Positions 41,045 to 49,931 of a DNA stretch of 64,000 bases are shown here, piece after piece. The stretch's first letter is position 1. Every line of letters starts with the position of its first letter. The position numbers and the translations under genes are program-made. Location of the stretch: the NCBI RefSeq assembly GCF_036227105.1, contig NZ_CP109434.1, positions 6,172,501 through 6,236,500 on the forward strand, written 5' to 3'. The notes beneath the pieces were generated by a model. That model was given only the letters and a program-made list of their open reading frames with translations, ran no database searches and had not been told where the DNA came from. The DNA is from Amycolatopsis sp. NBC_01488 (GTDB lineage Bacteria; Actinomycetota; Actinomycetes; Mycobacteriales; Pseudonocardiaceae).

Positions 41045-42028
41045 TCAGGTCCGGTTTGCGATGTGCTGCGCGCCCAGCTGTGAACGCAGTGTGCTCAGGT
41101 CGCAGTACGCCCGCGGCGGCAGCCCGAAGCGGCGGCGGAACTCGTTGATGAAATGCGACGCGCTCGGGTAGCCGACCGCCCGGGACACCGACACGACGGT
41201 GCCGTTGCCCCGCACCAGCAGGTCCCGCGCCCTGGTCAGCCGCATCTCTTTGACGAACTGGTACGGCGACTTCCCGGTGGATTGCCGGAACAGCGCGGTC
41301 AGCGCCGACGGGCTCATCGCCACCTGCTCCGCCATGTCGGTGACGGTCAGCGGCTCGGCCAGGTTGTCCTGGATGAACGTGATGACCCGCGCGACCGGAT
41401 CGTGGTTCTGCTGCGCCGCGGCGATTTCCAGCAGCCGCTCGTACTGCTCGGCCTGCAGCACGCGGTAGACCATCTCCTGCAGGTACGCGGGCGCCAGGAT
41501 CCGCCGGTCCGGCCCGGTGGACAGCGCGCGCAGGAACCGGATGACCGAACTCATCAGCCCGGAGTCCAGCGCCGAGACGAACGCCTTCGACGGATCCGGC
41601 GGGCTGTCGACCAGCATTTCCGCACGCCGCTGTTCCAGCATTTCCACCGACACCCGCCGGACCACCGCGGGGTCGATCTGCAGCACGAAGGAGAGGAAGG
41701 GCTTCGTGACGGTGGCCTCGAGGATCTCGGCCTGGAAGTGCAGGTGGCTGTTCAGAACCAGGTAGTTGAACGGGTCGTACCGGTAGGGCTGCCCGTCCAC
41801 CGTCACGCACTTACGACCCTGGCTGACCACGCACAGTGACAGCGATTGGACCTCTTCCCAGCTGGGCGCGGTGGGCTCGTGGAAGCGGTAGATCGTCAGC
41901 CCCGGCCACAGCCCGGTGTTGCCACCGACCTCCGGTGCGCGTCCCGCCAGCTCGGAGATCAGGTCACCGGGCGTCATCCGATCTTCCAGCGGCGGAACGG
42001 ACCGCACCATGCCTGCCTCCGACGTCAC
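41045..42028 (-). CDS. AraC-family regulator at the 3' end of the monooxygenase operon
   Basis: 327 residues (GTG 42028; MVRSVPP at 42010 is possible). AraC_N sensor domain (WEEVQSLSLCVVSQGRKCVT, YDPFNYLVLNSHLHFQAEIL). C-terminal helix-turn-helices LTVTDMAEQVAMSPSALTAL, FRQSTGKSPYQFVKEMRLTR and AVGYPSASHFINEFRRRFGL. It is a close paralogue of the AraC protein at 50933-51886, sharing for instance YQFVKEMRL, ASHFINEFR and DPFNYLVL. Same strand as the operon, 91 bp after its last gene. Confidence 0.92.
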   Translation of the reverse strand: MTSEAGMVRSVPPLEDRMTPGDLISELAGRAPEVGGNTGLWPGLTIYRFHEPTAPSWEEVQSLSLCVVSQGRKCVTVDGQPYRYDPFNYLVLNSHLHFQAEILEATVTKPFLSFVLQIDPAVVRRVSVEMLEQRRAEMLVDSPPDPSKAFVSALDSGLMSSVIRFLRALSTGPDRRILAPAYLQEMVYRVLQAEQYERLLEIAAAQQNHDPVARVITFIQDNLAEPLTVTDMAEQVAMSPSALTALFRQSTGKSPYQFVKEMRLTRARDLLVRGNGTVVSVSRAVGYPSASHFINEFRRRFGLPPRAYCDLSTLRSQLGAQHIANRT

Positions 42029-42119: not shown

Positions 42120-42410
42120 TCACCCGATGGTCTCGAACTCCCGCACGCTCCGCTCGGCCAGGTTCGGGATCGCTTCGCCGAGCACATGCTTCTGGAACGC
42201 GTCGGTGGCGCGGTGATCGGCGTACCCGGAGGCGTCGACGTACTTCTCGTACAGCACAAAGGTGTCCGGGTCGTCCCGGCTCACGTGCGCCTGGAACTCC
42301 AGCATCTTCTCCTCCGCCCGGTTGCCGGGCGTGACGGTTTCCAGGATCTGCCGAATCTTCTCCGCCTGCCCAGGCTTCGCGACCCAGGTGGCGATGACGA
42401 CATAAGCCAT
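42120..42410 (-). CDS. ABM-family (antibiotic biosynthesis monooxygenase-like) protein
   Basis: 96 residues from ATG 42410. A dimeric alpha/beta-barrel protein: MAYVVIATWVAKPGQAEKIR, FQAHVSRDDPDTFVLYEKYV and ATDAFQKHVLGEAIPNLAER. Family members oxidise quinols without cofactor (YgiN-like) or degrade reactive products. As the last gene of the diiron monooxygenase operon it may handle quinol- or catechol-type products. Confidence 0.85.
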   Translation of the reverse strand: MAYVVIATWVAKPGQAEKIRQILETVTPGNRAEEKMLEFQAHVSRDDPDTFVLYEKYVDASGYADHRATDAFQKHVLGEAIPNLAERSVREFETIG

Positions 42411-42436: not shown

Positions 42437-43171
42437 TCAGAATTTGCTGAAACCGATGGCGCGCAGCTGCTCTTGGCCGGCGTCGCTGATGTCCGACGGC
42501 CGCCACGACGGGGACCAGACCCACGCCACCCGGAAGTCCGCGACGACGGCGGCGTCCTCCAGCAGCGCCGTCCGGATCTGGTCCTCCATGATCCCGGTGA
42601 GCGGGCAGGCGGGTGAGGTCAGCGTCATGGTCAGCGTGGCGACGTTGTGCTCGTCCACCGTCACGCCACGCACGAACCCCAGGTCGACGACGTTGACCCC
42701 CAGGTCGGGGTCGAGCACGTCGTAAAGCGCCTCCCGCACCGGAACCGACCGCGCGTCCGCCGGCGCACTGTCGACGACGGGTTCGTCCGCGGCCACGACG
42801 GGCGCCGGTACGGCGGCGGCTTCGTACGCGCCTGCCGGTTGCAGTTCGACACGCACGTCGGCTGTCTCGCTGCTGATCCAGTCGGCCTTGCCGTGCGCCT
42901 TCCGCCGCACCCGCACGATCGGCTCCGCGGGTGTGGCGGAACCGCCGGCCACGATCAGCTGCCCGGCAGAAAGCCCGGCTCGGCCGGCGTTCGCCAGTGC
43001 CTTGTCGAGCACCCGGGCGACCGGCTCACACGTACGACCGGGCCCGCGCCGCAGCTTCGCGACCGCGTCCACCACGCTCAGCCCACGCACGCGCGCCAGC
43101 GCCGTCCGGGCGTCGGCGGCTGTCACCCGCGTCTGGGGCGCCACCGTTTCCAGCACCGCAAGGGTCGTCAC
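42437..43171 (-). CDS. Fusion of a uL22-like domain with an MIP18/SufT-type Fe-S assembly domain
   Basis: 244 residues from GTG 43171 (GGAGGAA seven bases upstream). Residues 12-112 look like ribosomal protein uL22: TALARVRGLSVVDAVAKLRR, ARVLDKALANAGRAGLSAG and IVRVRRKAHGKADWISSETA. A low-complexity linker (113-142) follows. Residues 144-235 are an MIP18/PaaD-like (DUF59) domain: VREALYDVLDPDLGVNVVDL, GFVRG, and TSPACPLTG with its conserved Cys189. The DUF59 part suggests a role in Fe or Fe-S assembly for the oxygenase or its Rieske protein. What the L22-like part does here is unknown. It is not the housekeeping L22 gene, as no ribosomal operon is nearby. Confidence 0.75.
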   Translation of the reverse strand: MTTLAVLETVAPQTRVTAADARTALARVRGLSVVDAVAKLRRGPGRTCEPVARVLDKALANAGRAGLSAGQLIVAGGSATPAEPIVRVRRKAHGKADWISSETADVRVELQPAGAYEAAAVPAPVVAADEPVVDSAPADARSVPVREALYDVLDPDLGVNVVDLGFVRGVTVDEHNVATLTMTLTSPACPLTGIMEDQIRTALLEDAAVVADFRVAWVWSPSWRPSDISDAGQEQLRAIGFSKF

Positions 43172-43201: not shown

Positions 43202-44437
43202 TCAGGCCCGGGATGCTGTCTTGGTGCGCGGCATCAGCCGTTTCAGCGGCAACGACTCGTCGGCGAGCTGCTCGGCCGTCACCTCGTGCGGTGCGAACAG
43301 CATCCGGCGGGCCGCGAGCACGTCACCGGGCCGGTTGAGCGAGATGACACCCTGAATCCGGCCGTCCACCAACGAGAACGCCGAGAAGCTGCGGTCGGCC
43401 AGGCGTCCGCGGAGCACCACCGAATCGAAGGCGCCCATGCGGCCGGTCGACTGCAGGCTGTGCTCGTACTGGTCGGACCAGAACCAGTGCGCCTCCTCGA
43501 AGGGCGTCACCTCGCCCGCCAGGTTGGCGGCGACGTTCGCGCCCTGGCGCACGGCGGTGTCGTGGTGTTCGACCCGGATCCGCGTGCCGTAACGCGGGTG
43601 GTGCTGGGCCGCGACGTCACCGGCCGCGTACACGTGCGGCGCCGACGTCCGCCCGTACTCGTCGACCGCGAGCCCGCCGTTCGCCACGGCGAGCCCGGCG
43701 TCCTGCCCCAGCTCAACGTTCGGCACTGAGCCGATACCGACCACCACCAGATCGGCCTCCACGCGGTCGCCGCGGCTGGTGGTCAGCACGAAACCGTGCC
43801 GACCGCGGTCGAGGGCCGTGACGTGCTCGCCCGGGCGGATTTCCACGCCGCGTTCGCGATGGATGTCCATCAGTACCGCGCCGATGGCCGCGCCGAGCAC
43901 CCGCGCGAGCGGAGCGGGCTCGGGCTCGAACAGGGTGACCTGGGTGCCGAGCGCGGTGGCGGACGCGGCCACCTCGCACCCGATGAACCCGGCGCCCAGG
44001 ATCGCGATCCGCCGCGCCGTCGCCAGTTCGGCACGCAGTCGTCCGGCGTCGGCGGCCGTGCGCAGGTAGTGGACACCCTCGCCGTCGAACCCGGAAAGGC
44101 GTCGCGGCCGCACACCCGTGGCCAGCACCAGGTCGTCGTAACCCAGACGCTCCCCTGTGGACAGTCCCACGCTCCGGCCGGCCACGTCGAGGGCCACGGC
44201 GCGCACGCCGAGCCGCAACTCGACGCCGTTGGCCGCGTACCAGTCCGGTGTCAACGGCCGCACCAGCTCCGGCGGCCCCGTCAGGAACTCCTTCGACAGC
44301 GGCGGCCGCTCGTACGGCGCCGCCGTCTCCTCGCCGACCAGCACGACGTCACCGTCGAAGCCCCGCTTGCGCAGGTGGGCGGCGGCCGACGCGGCCGCGA
44401 CACCGCCGCCCACGAGCACACAACGCTTGGTCGTCAT
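43202..44437 (-). CDS. Ferredoxin reductase (FAD/NAD type) of the monooxygenase
   Basis: 411 residues from ATG 44437, which overlaps the Rieske stop (ATGA). FAD site VLVGGGVAAASAAAHLRKRG, NAD site IAILGAGFIGCEVAASATAL, second FAD motif VYAAGDVAAQHHPRYG and a C-terminal reductase domain with EHHDTAVRQGANVAANLAG and WFWSDQYEHSLQSTGR. This is the dioxygenase/P450-type ferredoxin reductase (BphA4/RhuA kind), not the iron-sulfur flavoprotein (TmoF kind) usual for toluene monooxygenases. It passes electrons from NADH to the Rieske ferredoxin. Confidence 0.9.
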   Translation of the reverse strand: MTTKRCVLVGGGVAAASAAAHLRKRGFDGDVVLVGEETAAPYERPPLSKEFLTGPPELVRPLTPDWYAANGVELRLGVRAVALDVAGRSVGLSTGERLGYDDLVLATGVRPRRLSGFDGEGVHYLRTAADAGRLRAELATARRIAILGAGFIGCEVAASATALGTQVTLFEPEPAPLARVLGAAIGAVLMDIHRERGVEIRPGEHVTALDRGRHGFVLTTSRGDRVEADLVVVGIGSVPNVELGQDAGLAVANGGLAVDEYGRTSAPHVYAAGDVAAQHHPRYGTRIRVEHHDTAVRQGANVAANLAGEVTPFEEAHWFWSDQYEHSLQSTGRMGAFDSVVLRGRLADRSFSAFSLVDGRIQGVISLNRPGDVLAARRMLFAPHEVTAEQLADESLPLKRLMPRTKTASRA

Positions 44438-44760
44438 CCGACGTCCACCCGGATCGTGCCGTCCTCGTCCACCCGGCAGGGGAACGAGGTGAGCCGGCAG
44501 TTGTCCGGGTTGACCCCGGAGCCGCTGCGGGCGTCGAACACCCACAGGTGCCGGGAGCACGTGAGGGTCTCGCCGTCGAAGTCGCCCTCGTCGAGCGCCC
44601 AGGCCTGGTGCGGGCAGCGGTTCCGGTACGCCCGCACGTCGCCGTCGATGTTCATCAGCAGGACTTTCTCCCCGCCGACCTCGACGCCCGCCATCTCGCC
44701 TTCCCACAGCTCGTCGAGTTGCATGGCCTCCTGCCACTGCCCGGTCATCGCTCCGTTCAC
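44434..44760 (-). CDS. Rieske [2Fe-2S] ferredoxin of the monooxygenase (TmoC-like)
   Basis: 108 residues from GTG 44760, overlapping the beta-subunit stop (GTGA); ATG 44748 is possible. Rieske ligands are CPH at 49-51 and CSRH at 68-71 with the expected spacing (RNRCPHQAWALDEGDFDG, TLTCSRHLWVFDARSGSG). It carries electrons from the reductase to the diiron hydroxylase. Confidence 0.93.
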   Translation of the reverse strand: MNGAMTGQWQEAMQLDELWEGEMAGVEVGGEKVLLMNIDGDVRAYRNRCPHQAWALDEGDFDGETLTCSRHLWVFDARSGSGVNPDNCRLTSFPCRVDEDGTIRVDVG

Positions 44761-45788
44761 CGCGCCGCACGCATCCCTTCCGGCTCGAAGATCGGCTCGT
44801 GGAACGCCTCGCGGGCGGCCTTCGCGCCGGCGGCCACCTCGCTCGCCGGACGGCCGTGCTCCGGCCGGGTCTCGAGCAGCTCACCCAGCCCGGCCGCCGC
44901 CGCGTCCGCGATCGGCGACCAGCGGTCGATCCAGCGCCGCAGCACGTCGGCGTTCGACGGCCGCTGCTCGACGGCGAACCGCGCCAGCGCCGAACTCCAC
45001 CGGTTGCGCCGGTTGTTGTCCTCCTGCAGGAACGACAGCAGCAACCAGGACTCTTCGTCGCGGTTCTCGCGCGAGACCTCTTTGAACTGCCGCACCAGCA
45101 CGTCGTCGAACGTCGGCGCGAGCACCAGGTTCAACGCAACGAACGCCTCACCCCAGTCGTAGCTGACGAGCGCCTTCTCCACCGCGCGCCGGGCCGGCTG
45201 CCAGGCGTCGAGGTTCTCCCAGATCTGCCGCTCGGCGGTACCGGCCCTGCTGTCCGGGTGCGCGATCTGCAACTCGCGGGTCCGGTACGCGATCAGCGTG
45301 ACCCGGCGCAGGTAGTCGGCCGTGGCGAAACCCGCCGTGTTGGTCACATACGAGGTCGGGGCCAGGTAGCCGAGGTACGCCTGGATCTGCTGACAGCCGT
45401 GCAGGAGGTAGCGCGACGGCGTGAACAGCGAGGTCAGCAGCGCCAGCTGCCCGGGCGCGAGCGCGGCGTCCGAGCCCGCGTACTCTTCGAGCACGCCACC
45501 GGTCTTCGCCTCGGCTTCGGCCTGCACCGTGACGTATGTCTTGTAAGTCAACGCGTCCGGGTCGCGGAAAGCGTCCCAGTCGTCGACCTGCAACGGCGAC
45601 TTGTCGCGGTAGGTCAGGAACCACAGGTTGGCCGGCGAGGACGGGTTCTGCTCGAACGCGCCCGTGCGGTTCTTGCGCAGCGTCCAGTTCTGGGCGTGCG
45701 TGACGATCTCGTAGTCGCTCGGCATCCGGCGGATGTCGCCGAACGCGCTGAACGTCTTGCGCGGCCTTGCCTTCTTCGGCTGTGTCAT
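44757..45788 (-). CDS. Diiron monooxygenase hydroxylase beta subunit (TmoE-like)
   Basis: 343 residues. Non-catalytic ferritin-like subunit of soluble diiron monooxygenases: RKTFSAFGDIRRMPSDYEIV, NLWFLTYRDKSPLQVDDWDA and AYLGYLAPTSYVTNTAGFAT, SYDWGEAFVALNLVLAPTFD. It lacks the EXXH pairs of the alpha subunit. Overlaps the effector gene stop (ATGA) and the Rieske start. Confidence 0.92.
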   Translation of the reverse strand: MTQPKKARPRKTFSAFGDIRRMPSDYEIVTHAQNWTLRKNRTGAFEQNPSSPANLWFLTYRDKSPLQVDDWDAFRDPDALTYKTYVTVQAEAEAKTGGVLEEYAGSDAALAPGQLALLTSLFTPSRYLLHGCQQIQAYLGYLAPTSYVTNTAGFATADYLRRVTLIAYRTRELQIAHPDSRAGTAERQIWENLDAWQPARRAVEKALVSYDWGEAFVALNLVLAPTFDDVLVRQFKEVSRENRDEESWLLLSFLQEDNNRRNRWSSALARFAVEQRPSNADVLRRWIDRWSPIADAAAAGLGELLETRPEHGRPASEVAAGAKAAREAFHEPIFEPEGMRAAR

Positions 45789-46102
45789 GCCCTCACCTCT
45801 TCACCGGCCGACGCGGCCTTGCGCGCCGAGATCCGTTCCCACACGATCGAGCCGCTCGTGGTGATGGCACGCCCGGCGAAGGACGACATCATGGTTTCGA
45901 GCGAGCGGATCTCGAACTCGCTGCCGAGGTAGCGCCGCAGCGTCTCCTCGGTCAGCACCACCCGGTCCTCACCCTGGATCCGGACGTACGCACCCCGGTC
46001 GATGACTTCGATCTCCTGGTCCGGGTTGTCGTCCTCGATCGCCGCGATCACCTGCTCCACCTCGTCGCCCATGCGCAGGATCGGGCCCACTGGGTTCTTC
46101 AC
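45785..46102 (-). CDS. Effector (regulatory) protein of the monooxygenase, MmoB/DmpM family
   Basis: 105 residues. MmoB/DmpM/TmoD-type fold: NPVGPILRMGDEVEQVIAAI, EDDNPDQEIEVIDRGAYVRI, VVLTEETLRRYLGSEFEIRS. It has no cofactor; the family binds the hydroxylase and tunes oxygen activation. Overlaps both neighbours by four bases. Confidence 0.92.
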   Translation of the reverse strand: MKNPVGPILRMGDEVEQVIAAIEDDNPDQEIEVIDRGAYVRIQGEDRVVLTEETLRRYLGSEFEIRSLETMMSSFAGRAITTSGSIVWERISARKAASAGEEVRA

Positions 46103-46401
46103 CGTGCTCCCTCCTGCAGGTCGTACTCGACGCGGACGTGGTCCAGCGGCCCGATGCCCGCCTCGGCCACGGTCAGCTCCGGCGGCAGTCGCCGTCCTTT
46201 GTGGAACACGACCTTCTCCGCGTCGCGGGCCCGCACGCGCTTGCCCTCGACGTGGTGGGCGACCGCGGCCGCCACCTCCCGGATCGTGTCCGCGGTGGTG
46301 ACCGGCACCAGGATCTGCACGAAGTCGTCCGCGAAGATGGCGTTGAGCGGCACCAGCTGCGGGGCTTGGTCCTCAGGCCCCAGCTCGACGGTTCCGGCCA
46401 T
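46099..46401 (-). CDS. Hydroxylase gamma subunit, TmoB-like (ubiquitin fold)
   Basis: 100 residues. VPLNAIFADDFVQILVPVTT, VVFHKGRRLPPELTVAEAGI and GPLDHVRVEYDLQEG match toluene monooxygenase TmoB, the small ubiquitin-like third hydroxylase subunit. It follows the alpha subunit by three bases and overlaps the effector gene. Confidence 0.92.
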   Translation of the reverse strand: MAGTVELGPEDQAPQLVPLNAIFADDFVQILVPVTTADTIREVAAAVAHHVEGKRVRARDAEKVVFHKGRRLPPELTVAEAGIGPLDHVRVEYDLQEGAR

Positions 46402-46404
46402 GGC

Positions 46405-47934
46405 TCAGTCCTCCCCGTGGCCGGCGGCCAGCGCCAGGCCCGTCGCGGGACGGCCGACGTAGTCCCTGGTCCAGGCCTCGTAGTCCGGGTCGTCGCCCAT
46501 CACCTCGGGCGTGAGGCCCATGTGGGTGAGGATGCCGCCGACGTCCATCGGCTGGATCTGCCCGGCGAGGAACCGGTCGATCAGCGTCTCGTGGTTGACG
46601 TTGTCCCGGTCCTTCCACCAGATCTGGCGGCAGGCGTTGGTGCAGAAGTGGTGGGTCTTGCCGTCGTAGTCCAGCTGGTAGGTCGGGATGCGCCAGCGGC
46701 CGGACCGGGTCTGCTCGGCGTTGCAGCAGGGCAGGTTGCACATGCTGCACAGCCACGGCAGCGTCTCGGGGAGCGTGGCCTCGACGTTGTTGGCGTTGAT
46801 GTTGTCGATGATCACGTCCCACTTGTCGCCGTAGACCTGCTCCCAGTTCGGGTACTTCTCGCGCAGCCAGTCGCGCTCGTCCTTGCTGACGGCGGCCTTC
46901 GGGCGCCACCACAGCGTCGGGCGCCAGGTCCACAGGCCCATGTGCAGCCCGTGGTGCCAGGTGTCGAGGCCGCGCATGAACTCGTCCCAGAACCACGGCT
47001 TCTTCAGCCCGTAGTCCTCGATCGTGTGGACGAACTGGTCGACGATCCATTCCTCCATGAACTCCCGGTAGGACTGCTTCCGGTGTTCCAGCGGGGTGTA
47101 GTAGTCCATCGCCGGGCCGGTGAGCGCGGCGAACGCGCGGGCCGAGCCCCAGAAGTTCTTGTCGATGATCCACTGGGCGCGCACGGGGTCGTGCTCGACG
47201 AGGATCTCCATCGTGGGGCCGCCCTGCTGCGAGTGGCGGGCCTCGTCGGTCTGGATCGAGGAGATCATGTTGGCGAAGTTGACGTCGCCGGCCTCCAGCG
47301 CGTCGGCCGAGAGCGCGATGAACTGCAGGTTGGTGAACCCGGTCTCGAAGGTGAACGGCAGCGCGATCGCCAGGTCCACCACGTTCGGTGCGATCATCAT
47401 GCCGTCGAACAGGTTCCGCAGCGAGATCGGCACCCAGTTGTCCATGTGGAACGTCTTCTGGGTCCAGTCGTACTGCGGGTCCTTCTTGATGAACTCGTGC
47501 CCGAAGAACGTGGTGATCTGCGCGTGCCGCAGCTCGTCCAGCTGGCCGAAGGCGGCCATGTTGCGCCAGGCCGCGTTCAGCCCGAACCGCGCCATCTTCA
47601 GCTCGCCGAGCACGGCCGCGTACTCGACCAGCGCCACGCCGCCGAAGTGCATCTTGGTGGAGGACTTCCAGCCCTCGTCGAGGTGGTCGAACGTGGTCGA
47701 GCGCTGGAGCGCGGCCTTGACCGCGTACGCGGACTGCTCCTTGTCGCGCTGGGTCGCCACGTAGTCGGGGTAGGTGACCTTGTAGTCCTCTTCCCAGCCC
47801 AGCCAGGCTTCCCGTGGCACCTTGCCGGTTCCGCTGTGCCATTCGGGGAACACGGCTTCGTCGTCGACGTAGCTGTAGGTCCAGTCGACGTCGCGGACGA
47901 ACCCCTGCCACTCTTCCCGCTTCAGCAGCGTCAT
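46405..47934 (-). CDS. Diiron monooxygenase hydroxylase alpha subunit (TmoA-like)
   Basis: 509 residues from ATG 47934. The iron ligands fall at Glu104, Glu134/His137 (FGQLDELRHAQ), Glu197 and Glu231/His234 (IQTDEARHSQ), the same numbering as known for toluene 4-monooxygenase. Pocket positions by that numbering are V100, V103, A107, T201 and F205; T201 and F205 match toluene monooxygenases and V103 replaces the usual small residue. The C-terminal part has a cysteine cluster at 396, 399, 403, 404, 431 and 435 (LCSMCNLPCCN, HHFCTNACRQIWW), as in YHS-type metal-binding domains. It hydroxylates or epoxidises an aromatic or alkene substrate with O2. Frames running upstream into the SnoaL gene are discounted. 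Confidence 0.94.
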   Translation of the reverse strand: MTLLKREEWQGFVRDVDWTYSYVDDEAVFPEWHSGTGKVPREAWLGWEEDYKVTYPDYVATQRDKEQSAYAVKAALQRSTTFDHLDEGWKSSTKMHFGGVALVEYAAVLGELKMARFGLNAAWRNMAAFGQLDELRHAQITTFFGHEFIKKDPQYDWTQKTFHMDNWVPISLRNLFDGMMIAPNVVDLAIALPFTFETGFTNLQFIALSADALEAGDVNFANMISSIQTDEARHSQQGGPTMEILVEHDPVRAQWIIDKNFWGSARAFAALTGPAMDYYTPLEHRKQSYREFMEEWIVDQFVHTIEDYGLKKPWFWDEFMRGLDTWHHGLHMGLWTWRPTLWWRPKAAVSKDERDWLREKYPNWEQVYGDKWDVIIDNINANNVEATLPETLPWLCSMCNLPCCNAEQTRSGRWRIPTYQLDYDGKTHHFCTNACRQIWWKDRDNVNHETLIDRFLAGQIQPMDVGGILTHMGLTPEVMGDDPDYEAWTRDYVGRPATGLALAAGHGED

Positions 47935-47948
47935 CGGTGCTTCCCTTC

Positions 47949-48422
47949 TCAGTCGACTTCGAGGTGGCCGAGCTGGCGGTTGATGCCTGCCCCGTCCCAG
48001 TAGGCGGAGATCCGGTCGATGAGCCCGTCGCCATCGACGTGGAAGAGGAACAGGTGGGGCTCGCTGAACTTCTGTCCGCGAGGTTCGGCGGCACCCCAGG
48101 CGAGCTGTTGGGTGCCGCCGATGTCGCAGCGGACCACCACGTCGCCGGTGTCGTTCGCGTCGACGGTGTGGACGTCGGTGAACAGGTCGGGGAAGGAGGC
48201 GATCAGCCCAACCCAGATGGTCTTGCCGACCGTCTTCACCTTGCCGTCGCCGCGCAGCACGCGCTGCTTCCCCCACAACTCGAACGGCACGTAGAAGAAG
48301 TCGGCGTTGTCGGCGCACAGGTCGGTCATCGCGTCGACGTCGTGGCGCCGGTAGGCGTCGAAGAAGGCCGTGACCCGGCCGGCCGCTTCCCGGCTGCGGC
48401 TGCGCGGTTCGGTTGTCGTCAT
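47949..48422 (-). CDS. SnoaL-like/NTF2-fold protein
   Basis: 157 residues. VTAFFDAYRRHDVDAMTDLC, FYVPFELWGKQRV, IASFPDLFTDVHTVDANDTG and RISAYWDGAGINRQLGHLEV are typical of SnoaL-like ester-cyclase or hydrolase proteins. It is encoded between the second NTF2-like gene and the hydroxylase alpha subunit, within the operon. It may isomerise or hydrolyse the oxygenated product, or act as a binding protein. Confidence 0.85.
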   Translation of the reverse strand: MTTTEPRSRSREAAGRVTAFFDAYRRHDVDAMTDLCADNADFFYVPFELWGKQRVLRGDGKVKTVGKTIWVGLIASFPDLFTDVHTVDANDTGDVVVRCDIGGTQQLAWGAAEPRGQKFSEPHLFLFHVDGDGLIDRISAYWDGAGINRQLGHLEVD

Positions 48423-48432
48423 CGGATTCCCC

Positions 48433-48915
48433 TCACACGAGCGAGATCTGGTCGAGGCGCTTCACGGCGAGCCGCCGGTACAGCTGGTTCTGGCACCAGT
48501 ACGCGTCGACGCCGGTGATGCGGTCACCGGATACGGTGAACCGCCAGGCCTGGTCCACGTCGAGGTGCTTCTCCTGGTTGATCGCGCCGAGGTAGCCCGC
48601 CGCCTGCGTGCCCTCCACCTTCAGCTCCGCGGTGACCACGGAGCCGGTCTCGATCAGGTTCTTCACCGTCACGAGCAGGTCCGGAAACGCGGTGGCGGTC
48701 TCGGTGAGGAAGGCCCGCAGATCGGCCGGTCCGCCTTCGCGCAGCCCGGTCGGGTGGATGTCCACGCGCGCGGAATCGTCCACAACGGACAGCGCGGCTT
48801 CGACGTCAAGACTGCCGAAGGCGGTCAGGAAGGCCGACACGGTCTGCGCCGGGGTCGCTTCCGCGGCGGTCTCGGCCTGAGCTTCGGCCTGGTCCCTGCG
48901 GGTGAAGAGTTTCAT
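48433..48915 (-). CDS. Second SnoaL/NTF2-like protein
   Basis: 160 residues from ATG 48915, overlapping the DJ-1 stop (ATGA). An N-terminal charged, alanine-rich stretch precedes the NTF2-like domain: VSAFLTAFGSLDVEAALSVV, FLTETATAFPDLLVTVKNLI and HLDVDQAWRFTVSGDRITGV, with CQNQLYRRL near the end. It is distantly related to the next gene, and tandem NTF2-like genes suggest a heteromer. Role unknown. Confidence 0.83.
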   Translation of the reverse strand: MKLFTRRDQAEAQAETAAEATPAQTVSAFLTAFGSLDVEAALSVVDDSARVDIHPTGLREGGPADLRAFLTETATAFPDLLVTVKNLIETGSVVTAELKVEGTQAAGYLGAINQEKHLDVDQAWRFTVSGDRITGVDAYWCQNQLYRRLAVKRLDQISLV

Positions 48916-49931
48916 CGCTGTCCCACCGCCTTCAGCAGCGCATCGGCCGTCGCCTCGGTGGAGGCGGGGTTCTGGCCGGTGATCAGGTTCCGGTCCACGA
49001 CCACGTGGGAGACCCACGCCGACGGCCCGTCGTCGAACACCGCGCCCGCGTTCTTCAGCGCCGTGTCGACGTACCAGGGCAGGCCCAGCTTGCCCGGCAC
49101 CGTCTGGTCCTCCTCTTCGTCGGTGAAGCAGGTGAGGCGGTACCCGTCGAAGAGCCACTGCCCGTCTTCGCGTTCGGGGGCCGACAGCAGCAGCGCGGGC
49201 CCGTGGCACAGCGCGGCGATCGGGGCCTGCTTGTCGTGCAGCACCTTCAGCAGCCTTGCCACGTCGGGGTTGTCGGCGAGGTCGACCATCGGCCCGTGGC
49301 CGCCCGGGGCGAACACGGCGTCGAACTCGGCGAGCTGTGCGTCGCTCAAGCCGGCCAGCGAGGTGGGCTGCCGGAAACCCGGGATGGCGTCCAGCCTGGC
49401 CTTCCGGTCGGCGGCCAGTTGCCGGCTCGCGGCGTCCAGCTCGGCGACCGCGGCCCGGATCTCCTCCGCGGGCAGGCCGCCGTCGAGACCGTCGTCCACC
49501 ATCACGTCGGCGAGCTGCCGGTCCTGGCGCCAGGCGATCTTGGCGGCCTTGCTGACCAGTGCGTGGGCCTCGGCGGGTGAAAGCCCGCGGGCCTTGAGCC
49601 GCTCGGCGATCCGCCGCGCGGCGACCAGGCCCAGCTCGGTGTTCTGGTGCAGCGTGATCCGGATGTCGTCCGGGTCGTGGTGGAACGTGCGGGCCACGGA
49701 CGCGAAGAAGTCCTGGTCCTCTTCGGGGTAGTGGAAAAACGACTCCAGCCCGTAGGGATCCGCGAACGGCGGCTCGCCGTCGGGCGTCAGCACCACCACC
49801 TCGGCCCCGGCGTCGACGAACCGGTCGTACGGTTTGACGGCCTCTTCGGCGAAGTAGCCAGTGGTGTGCCGGCTGCCGTCGGCGAGTTCGATCTCCTTCG
49901 CACTCGAGACGAGGTAGGCGATGCGCGCCAT
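48912..49931 (-). CDS. DJ-1/PfpI-superfamily protein, long form
   Basis: 339 residues, first gene of the monooxygenase operon. The nucleophile elbow IAALCHGPALLL holds Cys242, with the conserved acidic site in YFAEEAVKPY (about residue 30) and FAPGGHGPMVDLADNPDVAR. An insertion of roughly 100 residues (about 60-190, helical, with LERLKARG-like charged segments) sets it apart from its 240-residue paralogue across the promoter. Family activities include glyoxalase, deglycase and chaperone roles. Protection against reactive carbonyls made by the oxygenase is plausible. Confidence 0.88.
   Translation of the reverse strand: MARIAYLVSSAKEIELADGSRHTTGYFAEEAVKPYDRFVDAGAEVVVLTPDGEPPFADPYGLESFFHYPEEDQDFFASVARTFHHDPDDIRITLHQNTELGLVAARRIAERLKARGLSPAEAHALVSKAAKIAWRQDRQLADVMVDDGLDGGLPAEEIRAAVAELDAASRQLAADRKARLDAIPGFRQPTSLAGLSDAQLAEFDAVFAPGGHGPMVDLADNPDVARLLKVLHDKQAPIAALCHGPALLLSAPEREDGQWLFDGYRLTCFTDEEEDQTVPGKLGLPWYVDTALKNAGAVFDDGPSAWVSHVVVDRNLITGQNPASTEATADALLKAVGQR

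Follow-up and report, generated by a model that had tools for sequence, protein, structure and literature searches.

An L22-like protein fused to a DUF59 domain, a candidate accessory factor for one clade of diiron oxygenases of the toluene-4-monooxygenase type

Introduction

To our knowledge, the way in which multicomponent diiron oxygenases gain their iron cofactors in the cell is poorly understood. The toluene-4-monooxygenase-type soluble diiron monooxygenases (SDIMOs) share alpha, TmoB, MmoB, beta, Rieske and reductase components with the operon described here, which, compared with other loci of this type, adds genes for a DJ-1-like protein, two SnoaL-like proteins and an L22-like/DUF59 protein.

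PaaD is a DUF59 protein that is likewise encoded with a multicomponent diiron oxygenase, the phenylacetyl-CoA epoxidase PaaABCE; one study describes it as indispensable for PaaABCE in vivo but not in vitro, suggests that it might help iron into PaaE or PaaA, and lists it as of unknown function (PMC4498308). Similarly, according to another report, the SufT protein of Mycobacterium tuberculosis is needed for Fe-S maturation, and its reactive DUF59 cysteine mediates protein contacts (PMC9045647). A figure legend also marks an "iron-sulfur cluster assembly protein" in SDIMO clusters of gas-seep genomes (PMC9213486); these operons are likened to ours by that label, and the passage concerned makes no mention of an L22-like protein.

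Among the literature matches listed, mostly titles and the starts of abstracts with few subscription journals, we found no description of an L22/DUF59 pair or of an L22-like protein in a monooxygenase operon. Overproduction of a "ribosomal protein L22" in R. ruber is mentioned in passing in PMC11985408, where either L22 could be meant, and PMC4988695 was a false lead. A DUF59 accessory protein of a diiron oxygenase is a known kind of factor. The ribosomal-protein part is unexpected, and makes the protein a clear example of a uL22 paralogue that bacteria have outside the ribosome and a real re-use of a ribosomal protein. It also links DUF59 to a second part whose fold is well known, which is a handle for finding the client and its contact surface. 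The single annotated fusion that we saw bears the name "iron-sulfur cluster assembly protein", and the stand-alone form may receive the pipeline label "50S ribosomal protein L22", hiding its link to the oxygenase.

Results and Discussion

The operon and the fusion gene

Here, we analysed a window of 64,000 nucleotides from Amycolatopsis sp. NBC_01488. The operon on its minus strand runs in the order DJ-1-like, two SnoaL-like, alpha, TmoB, MmoB, beta, Rieske, reductase, fusion, ABM and AraC:

48912..49931, minus strand: DJ-1/PfpI-type protein (GAT1), opening the conserved block of genes (profile search)
48433..48915, minus strand: SnoaL/NTF2-like protein a (start set by eye from the ORF; searches used 48433-48870)
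47949..48422, minus strand: SnoaL/NTF2-like protein b (profile search)
46405..47934, minus strand: diiron hydroxylase alpha subunit, TmoA-like, 509 aa (Phenol_Hydrox, 3.9e-71)
46099..46401, minus strand: TmoB-like subunit (TmoB, 2.9e-34)
45785..46102, minus strand: effector protein of the MmoB/DmpM family (6.9e-29)
44757..45788, minus strand: diiron hydroxylase beta subunit, TmoE-like (Phenol_Hydrox, 3.2e-64)
44434..44760, minus strand: Rieske [2Fe-2S] ferredoxin (1.8e-18)
43202..44437, minus strand: FAD-dependent ferredoxin reductase (Pyr_redox_2 and Reductase_C)
42437..43171, minus strand: L22-like and DUF59/MIP18 fusion, 244 aa, GTG start, stop included
42120..42410, minus strand: ABM-family small protein, directly after the fusion (PF03992, 1.7e-13)
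41045..42028, minus strand: AraC-type regulator (profile search)

The fusion had earlier been placed in an oxygenase context and, indeed, toluene-4-monooxygenase-type subunit genes scoring over the Pfam cut-offs lie in the same operon. By these profile matches the operon has the full predicted subunit set of a toluene-4-monooxygenase-type SDIMO, the substrate class being likewise a prediction. The ABM-family gene is present at many, not all, of the relatives' loci. The DJ-1/PfpI protein (48912-49931) has an extra stretch weakly matching the C-terminus of adenylosuccinate lyase (4.1e-5, below the cut-off), and a promoter and terminator scan gave nothing useful.

GAGGAGGA precedes the GTG start of the fusion ORF (42437-43171), which has no internal stops and is divided as follows:

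42830..43171, minus strand: uL22-like domain, residues 1-114 (Pfam Ribosomal_L22; fold of a relative; model of the fusion)
43028..43030, minus strand: Cys48 codon (alignment of L22-like with ribosomal L22)
42863..42922, minus strand: counterpart of the uL22 beta-hairpin, residues 84-103, motif RVRRxAHGxAxWI(S/T)(S/T)xT (entropy and invariant columns)
42749..42829, minus strand: variable linker, residues 115-141 (alignment; model confidence low at 121-137)
42440..42748, minus strand: DUF59/MIP18 domain, residues 142-244 (Pfam FeS_assembly_P; phmmer to 5ird; Foldseek to 3lno)
42605..42607, minus strand: codon of Cys189, the conserved DUF59 cysteine (TSPACPLT; alignment)

The earlier note had described the first ~110 residues as uL22-like, joined by a linker to a DUF59/MIP18 domain with its conserved cysteine, and this description holds. 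Ribosomal_L22 (PF00237) matches residues 13-110 (E 8.9e-15, 55.2 bits, cut-off 28) and FeS_assembly_P/DUF59 (PF01883) matches residues 145-204 (E 3.2e-15, 56.6 bits, cut-off 23.5); since both scores exceed the Pfam cut-offs, neither match is due to chance. The three phrases quoted as typical of uL22 are all present in the ORF, and four relatives score 61.3, 63.4, 44.0 and 54.3 bits against PF00237. The suggested check of the fold gave the same answer, as the predicted model of a stand-alone L22-like relative (pLDDT 93) has the uL22 fold with its long beta-hairpin and the model of the fusion agrees with it. The DUF59 part of the latter model matches 3lno in Foldseek, and C189 is kept in 23/23 aligned fused proteins. 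In its own genome, a single 9.5-Mb contig, the only full-length match to the fusion is itself; the other matches are a DUF59 gene (54%), the ordinary rplV (36%), whose neighbours were called ribosomal by eye from the DNA, and a weak one covering part of the DUF59 domain.

The DUF59 domain and its relatives

Among solved structures, the one closest in sequence to the DUF59 domain is 5ird (phmmer, 8.1e-31), the actinobacterial SufT Rv1466 of M. tuberculosis, which has the same cysteine motif. We infer that the reactive cysteine of SufT is the one corresponding to C189. The SufT equivalog TIGR02945 (SUF_assoc) gave the DUF59 part 63.4 of the 143.4 bits of its cut-off. Nineteen genomic rows, named SufT-like by similarity, make up a separate clade (support 100) with the operon DUF59 domains outside it, and the window's genome also has a SufT-like copy, at 53% identity. 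Three further rows labelled as genomic group with the operon type in this tree, namely L013 (identical to L069), L015 (identical to L170) and L020. The fusion differs from PaaD in that it has an L22 part, none being described for PaaD in the excerpts available, and in that its scores lie far below the cut-offs of the PaaD equivalogs (74.1 of 180 and 37.3 of 108.15 bits).

Distribution of the pair and its link to one hydroxylase clade

Genome contigs were scanned with one hairpin motif, [IV][VIT]R[VI]RR[KQL]AHG, so that L22-like genes with an altered hairpin are missed unless they adjoin another, as the second Amycolatopsis rubida copy does. Out of 53 matching stretches, 34 encode relatives, and in 33 of these 34 loci, some of them partial at contig ends, the L22-like gene lies 3' of the same set of oxygenase genes. 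The remaining locus (L079) holds a truncated fragment with no Pfam match and no operon. The hosts are Amycolatopsis, Pseudonocardia, Actinomycetospora, Streptomyces, Nocardia, Rhodococcus, Gordonia, Arthrobacter, Bordetella genomosp. 12 and MAGs, one of which bears the label "proteobacterium", and the operon is also found on a Rhodococcus koreensis plasmid. In Rhodococcus koreensis (L034:13108-15991), glyA and a succinate-semialdehyde dehydrogenase gene follow the operon, a possible hint at the pathway. In one MAG operon (L058:1354-1686), the Rieske gene is followed directly by the L22-like gene, with no reductase match between them.

L22 paralogues were also sought in other settings. PF00237 matched in 376 of the 394 genomes of the class sample, with two matches in 6; outside the window's genome, each second match is an ordinary duplicate or a fragment, the pair in G650 being judged ordinary from equal score alone. 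Six of the 397 genomes of the order sample passed E 1e-22, and the removal of 4 cases of ordinary rplV leaves 2/397, including the window's genome.

A search for the fusion across genomes had been proposed, and it was found well beyond the window: the 34 loci hold 35 L22-like genes, of which 22 are fused and 10 stand alone with a DUF59 gene next in line. The other 3, namely L068, L072 and the fragment L079, lack a DUF59 gene immediately downstream. An origin of the fusion by a frameshift artefact was rejected on the 22/35 fused genes and on the unfused forms, which are clean separate ORFs. In the genome of L072 (G080), an operon-type DUF59 gene lies ~10 kb away on the opposite strand (L170:13446-14363), with the L22-like gene still in its place in the operon, so the adjacency of the two is not obligatory.

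A search of the family's 297 genomes for TmoA-like proteins, with E 1e-100 as the limit, gave 32 matches in 26 genomes. The L22-like gene is present with 14/14 hydroxylase alpha subunits of at least 73% identity; among the 18 less similar or broken matches, 11 loci were examined, including the broken L121, and none (0/11) has the L22-like and DUF59 genes. One locus, L110, has the DJ-1-like, SnoaL-like and oxygenase genes, with no L22-like gene after the reductase and no DUF59. The contrast of 14/14 with 0/11, together with L110, makes it probable that the enzyme type came first and that one of its clades then acquired the pair. The L22-like/DUF59 pair stays with one hydroxylase clade.

The trees agree with this picture. 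In the L22 tree (98 rows, with long branches and few columns), a branch of support 100 splits 37 L22-like rows from 61 rplV rows, and 25 fused rows form one group (support 95) with the 12 unfused rows outside. In the TmoA tree (39 rows), 22 fused rows form one group (99), beyond which the 9 unfused rows make up two groups. The 8 operons that lack the pair lie outside all of these, except that the tree does not separate L110 from one of the unfused groups. As judged from the phylogenies, the fusion thus joins a uL22 paralogue outside the rplV clade to a DUF59 protein distinct from the SufT-like copies. The frequent occurrence of the two domains as separate neighbouring genes provides an evolutionary path, and the branching order indicates that they were joined first as neighbours and later as a fusion. 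The rows of Bordetella genomosp. 12 and of the MAG labelled "proteobacterium" (L057 and L064) nest within actinobacterial rows in both the L22-like and TmoA trees, which suggests horizontal transfer.

A candidate accessory factor for the oxygenase

The hairpin (residues 84-103) has a mean entropy of 0.76 bits against 1.61 in the rest of the domain (37 L22-like rows); out of 80 windows of 20, only two score lower, and both overlap the hairpin. The hairpin of ribosomal L22 is also the more conserved part (0.22 versus 0.72 bits), so this conservation is not by itself proof of a new use. Several residues are new and nearly invariant in the L22-like domains: Arg90 (37/37), His93 (36/37) and Trp98 (37/37). 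A conserved hairpin with new invariant residues points to a constraint that was kept and a surface that was changed. In addition, position 48 is Cys in 36/37 L22-like domains and Ser in 31/32 ribosomal L22s. The sole other residue among the 37 is the Tyr of Gordonia hydrophobica (L063:9974-10723), and Cys48 may therefore not be essential.

The DUF59 relatives SufT and PaaD are tied to iron cofactors, and for this reason we propose a PaaD-like maturation or repair factor. With moderate confidence, the fusion may be regarded as an accessory factor dedicated to a single clade of diiron oxygenases of the toluene-4-monooxygenase type, acting in maturation or maintenance in the manner of PaaD. The L22-like and DUF59 parts would act together on an operon product. 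The DUF59 domain, via Cys189, would help to insert or repair the iron cofactor of that protein, as is thought for PaaD, the client being either the Rieske [2Fe-2S] ferredoxin or the diiron hydroxylase. The L22-like domain would be the partner-recognition part, its hairpin with His93 and Trp98 touching the hydroxylase or the ferredoxin and not rRNA, and Cys48 may take part in the metal hand-over or in a redox step. A more specific version is offered tentatively, and may rather be wrong than right: the exit-tunnel hairpin of uL22, re-tooled (RVRRxAHGxAxWI and the Cys), probes an oxygenase subunit while DUF59 loads or repairs the iron cofactor, the pair having moved between Actinomycetota and Pseudomonadota with the oxygenase.

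The accessory-factor reading draws on the Pfam and fold matches, the 33/34 loci in one type of operon, the 14/14 versus 0/11 distribution, the trees, the hairpin and Cys189. Against it stand the lack of a new metal-site cluster in the oxygenase proteins, the absence of the pair at L110, the non-adjacent genes of G080 and the Tyr48 of L063. Regarding the first of these, 31-36 positive and 10 negative subunits were compared per protein (only 2 negatives for TmoB), and no new clade-specific Cys/His cluster was found in TmoA, Rieske, TmoE, MmoB or TmoB. A single His of TmoE (H31) is clade-biased, and His248 and His284 of TmoA are fixed in the L22-positive clade and found in 4/10 and 3/10 of the others. 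The hydroxylase C-terminal Cys set (C396, C399, C431 and C435) is present at each position in 31/31 L22-positive proteins and in 10, 5, 5 and 5 of 10 negative ones. As this comparison gave only a fuller conservation of some Cys and His residues, we rejected the idea that the factor is needed because of a metal site particular to the clade.

Apart from that C-terminal Cys set, the metal sites are the same in L22-positive and L22-negative hydroxylases, and the hairpin is the best-conserved stretch, as expected of an interface. Both observations would suit a structural or regulatory subunit sitting on the hydroxylase or ferredoxin, with no metal delivery and with DUF59 docking or sensing redox state through its Cys. 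This explanation appears unlikely to us, as SufT and PaaD are linked to iron cofactors in the parts of the reports available and C189 is kept in all 23 fused proteins.

Comparison with ribosomal L22

In the ribosome, the hairpin of uL22 forms part of the wall of the exit tunnel and touches rRNA. The L22-like domain has fold and homology in common with ribosomal protein uL22 (rplV), and its five best PDB sequence matches are actinobacterial uL22s. It differs from rplV in forming a separate clade, in the loss of basic and signature residues, in the new Cys48, His93 and Trp98 and in its location in a catabolic operon. The reference set consisted of 32 ribosomal L22s, namely those of the window's genome and of E. 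coli and the 30 best-scoring of the class sample, and is not a random draw. Sixteen positions are K/R in at least 90% of this set; across the 37 L22-like domains, 4 of them remain basic in no less than 97%, and 10 are basic in less than half, 6 of these in less than 10%. R15, R53, R87 and R89 are basic in at least 97% of the L22-like domains and K/R in at least 94% of the ribosomal ones. The second hairpin strand of the L22-like domains is without Arg95, Lys98, Arg99 and His102 (E. coli numbering), and the mean net charge is +1.9 versus +8.9 for ribosomal L22, over stretches that differ somewhat in length. Moreover, an ordinary rplV is found in 29/29 genomes hosting the 33 operon loci, all in the rplV clade.

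The retained fold, the four basic residues and the new, invariant R90 would be compatible with a domain that still binds RNA, either on the ribosome close to its exit tunnel or in the mRNA of the operon, and couples cofactor insertion or expression to translation of the oxygenase. The low charge, the residues lost from the second hairpin strand and the rplV of every host genome argue against such coupling, which we consider quite improbable. The earlier note had named RNA binding and an assembly scaffold as possible roles. A scaffold would fit better, because 4/16 conserved basic positions are kept and 6/16 are basic in less than 10% of the domains, and RNA binding is disfavoured by this residue content.

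Replacement of ribosomal L22 under some condition, favoured only by the fold and family match, is very improbable given the lost signature residues, the 41.5 of 73.65 bits against the rplV equivalog TIGR01044 (53.3, 44.4 and 47.6 in three relatives), the catabolic operon in 33/34 loci and the DUF59 fusion. A ribosomal role was rejected as the main reading on the missed equivalog cut-off, the lost signature residues and the presence of rplV in every host.

Selection and degraded copies

The dN/dS of the L22 part is 0.18-0.50 in 8/9 pairs; the ninth pair has zero amino-acid changes and almost no silent changes. The stretch that follows the L22 part (the linker, or the C-terminal tail of unfused forms) is looser, at 0.34-1.17 in 7 defined pairs. 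These ratios indicate that the L22 part is under purifying selection. They also make an accidental passenger with no function, which the degraded extra copy L035 and the fragment L079 might suggest, scarcely credible, as do the invariant residues across two phyla and the retention over many genera.

Finally, two loci have duplicated or decaying copies. G146 has a decayed second operon end (L035:6656-10085), with TmoE and the reductase in pieces and a frame break in the DUF59 part. In Amycolatopsis rubida (L059:8877-10747), one operon has unfused L22-like and DUF59 genes, a C-terminal piece of the reductase and a fused L22-DUF59 gene whose product has lost the invariant hairpin motif, a double arrangement that is possibly a recombination scar.
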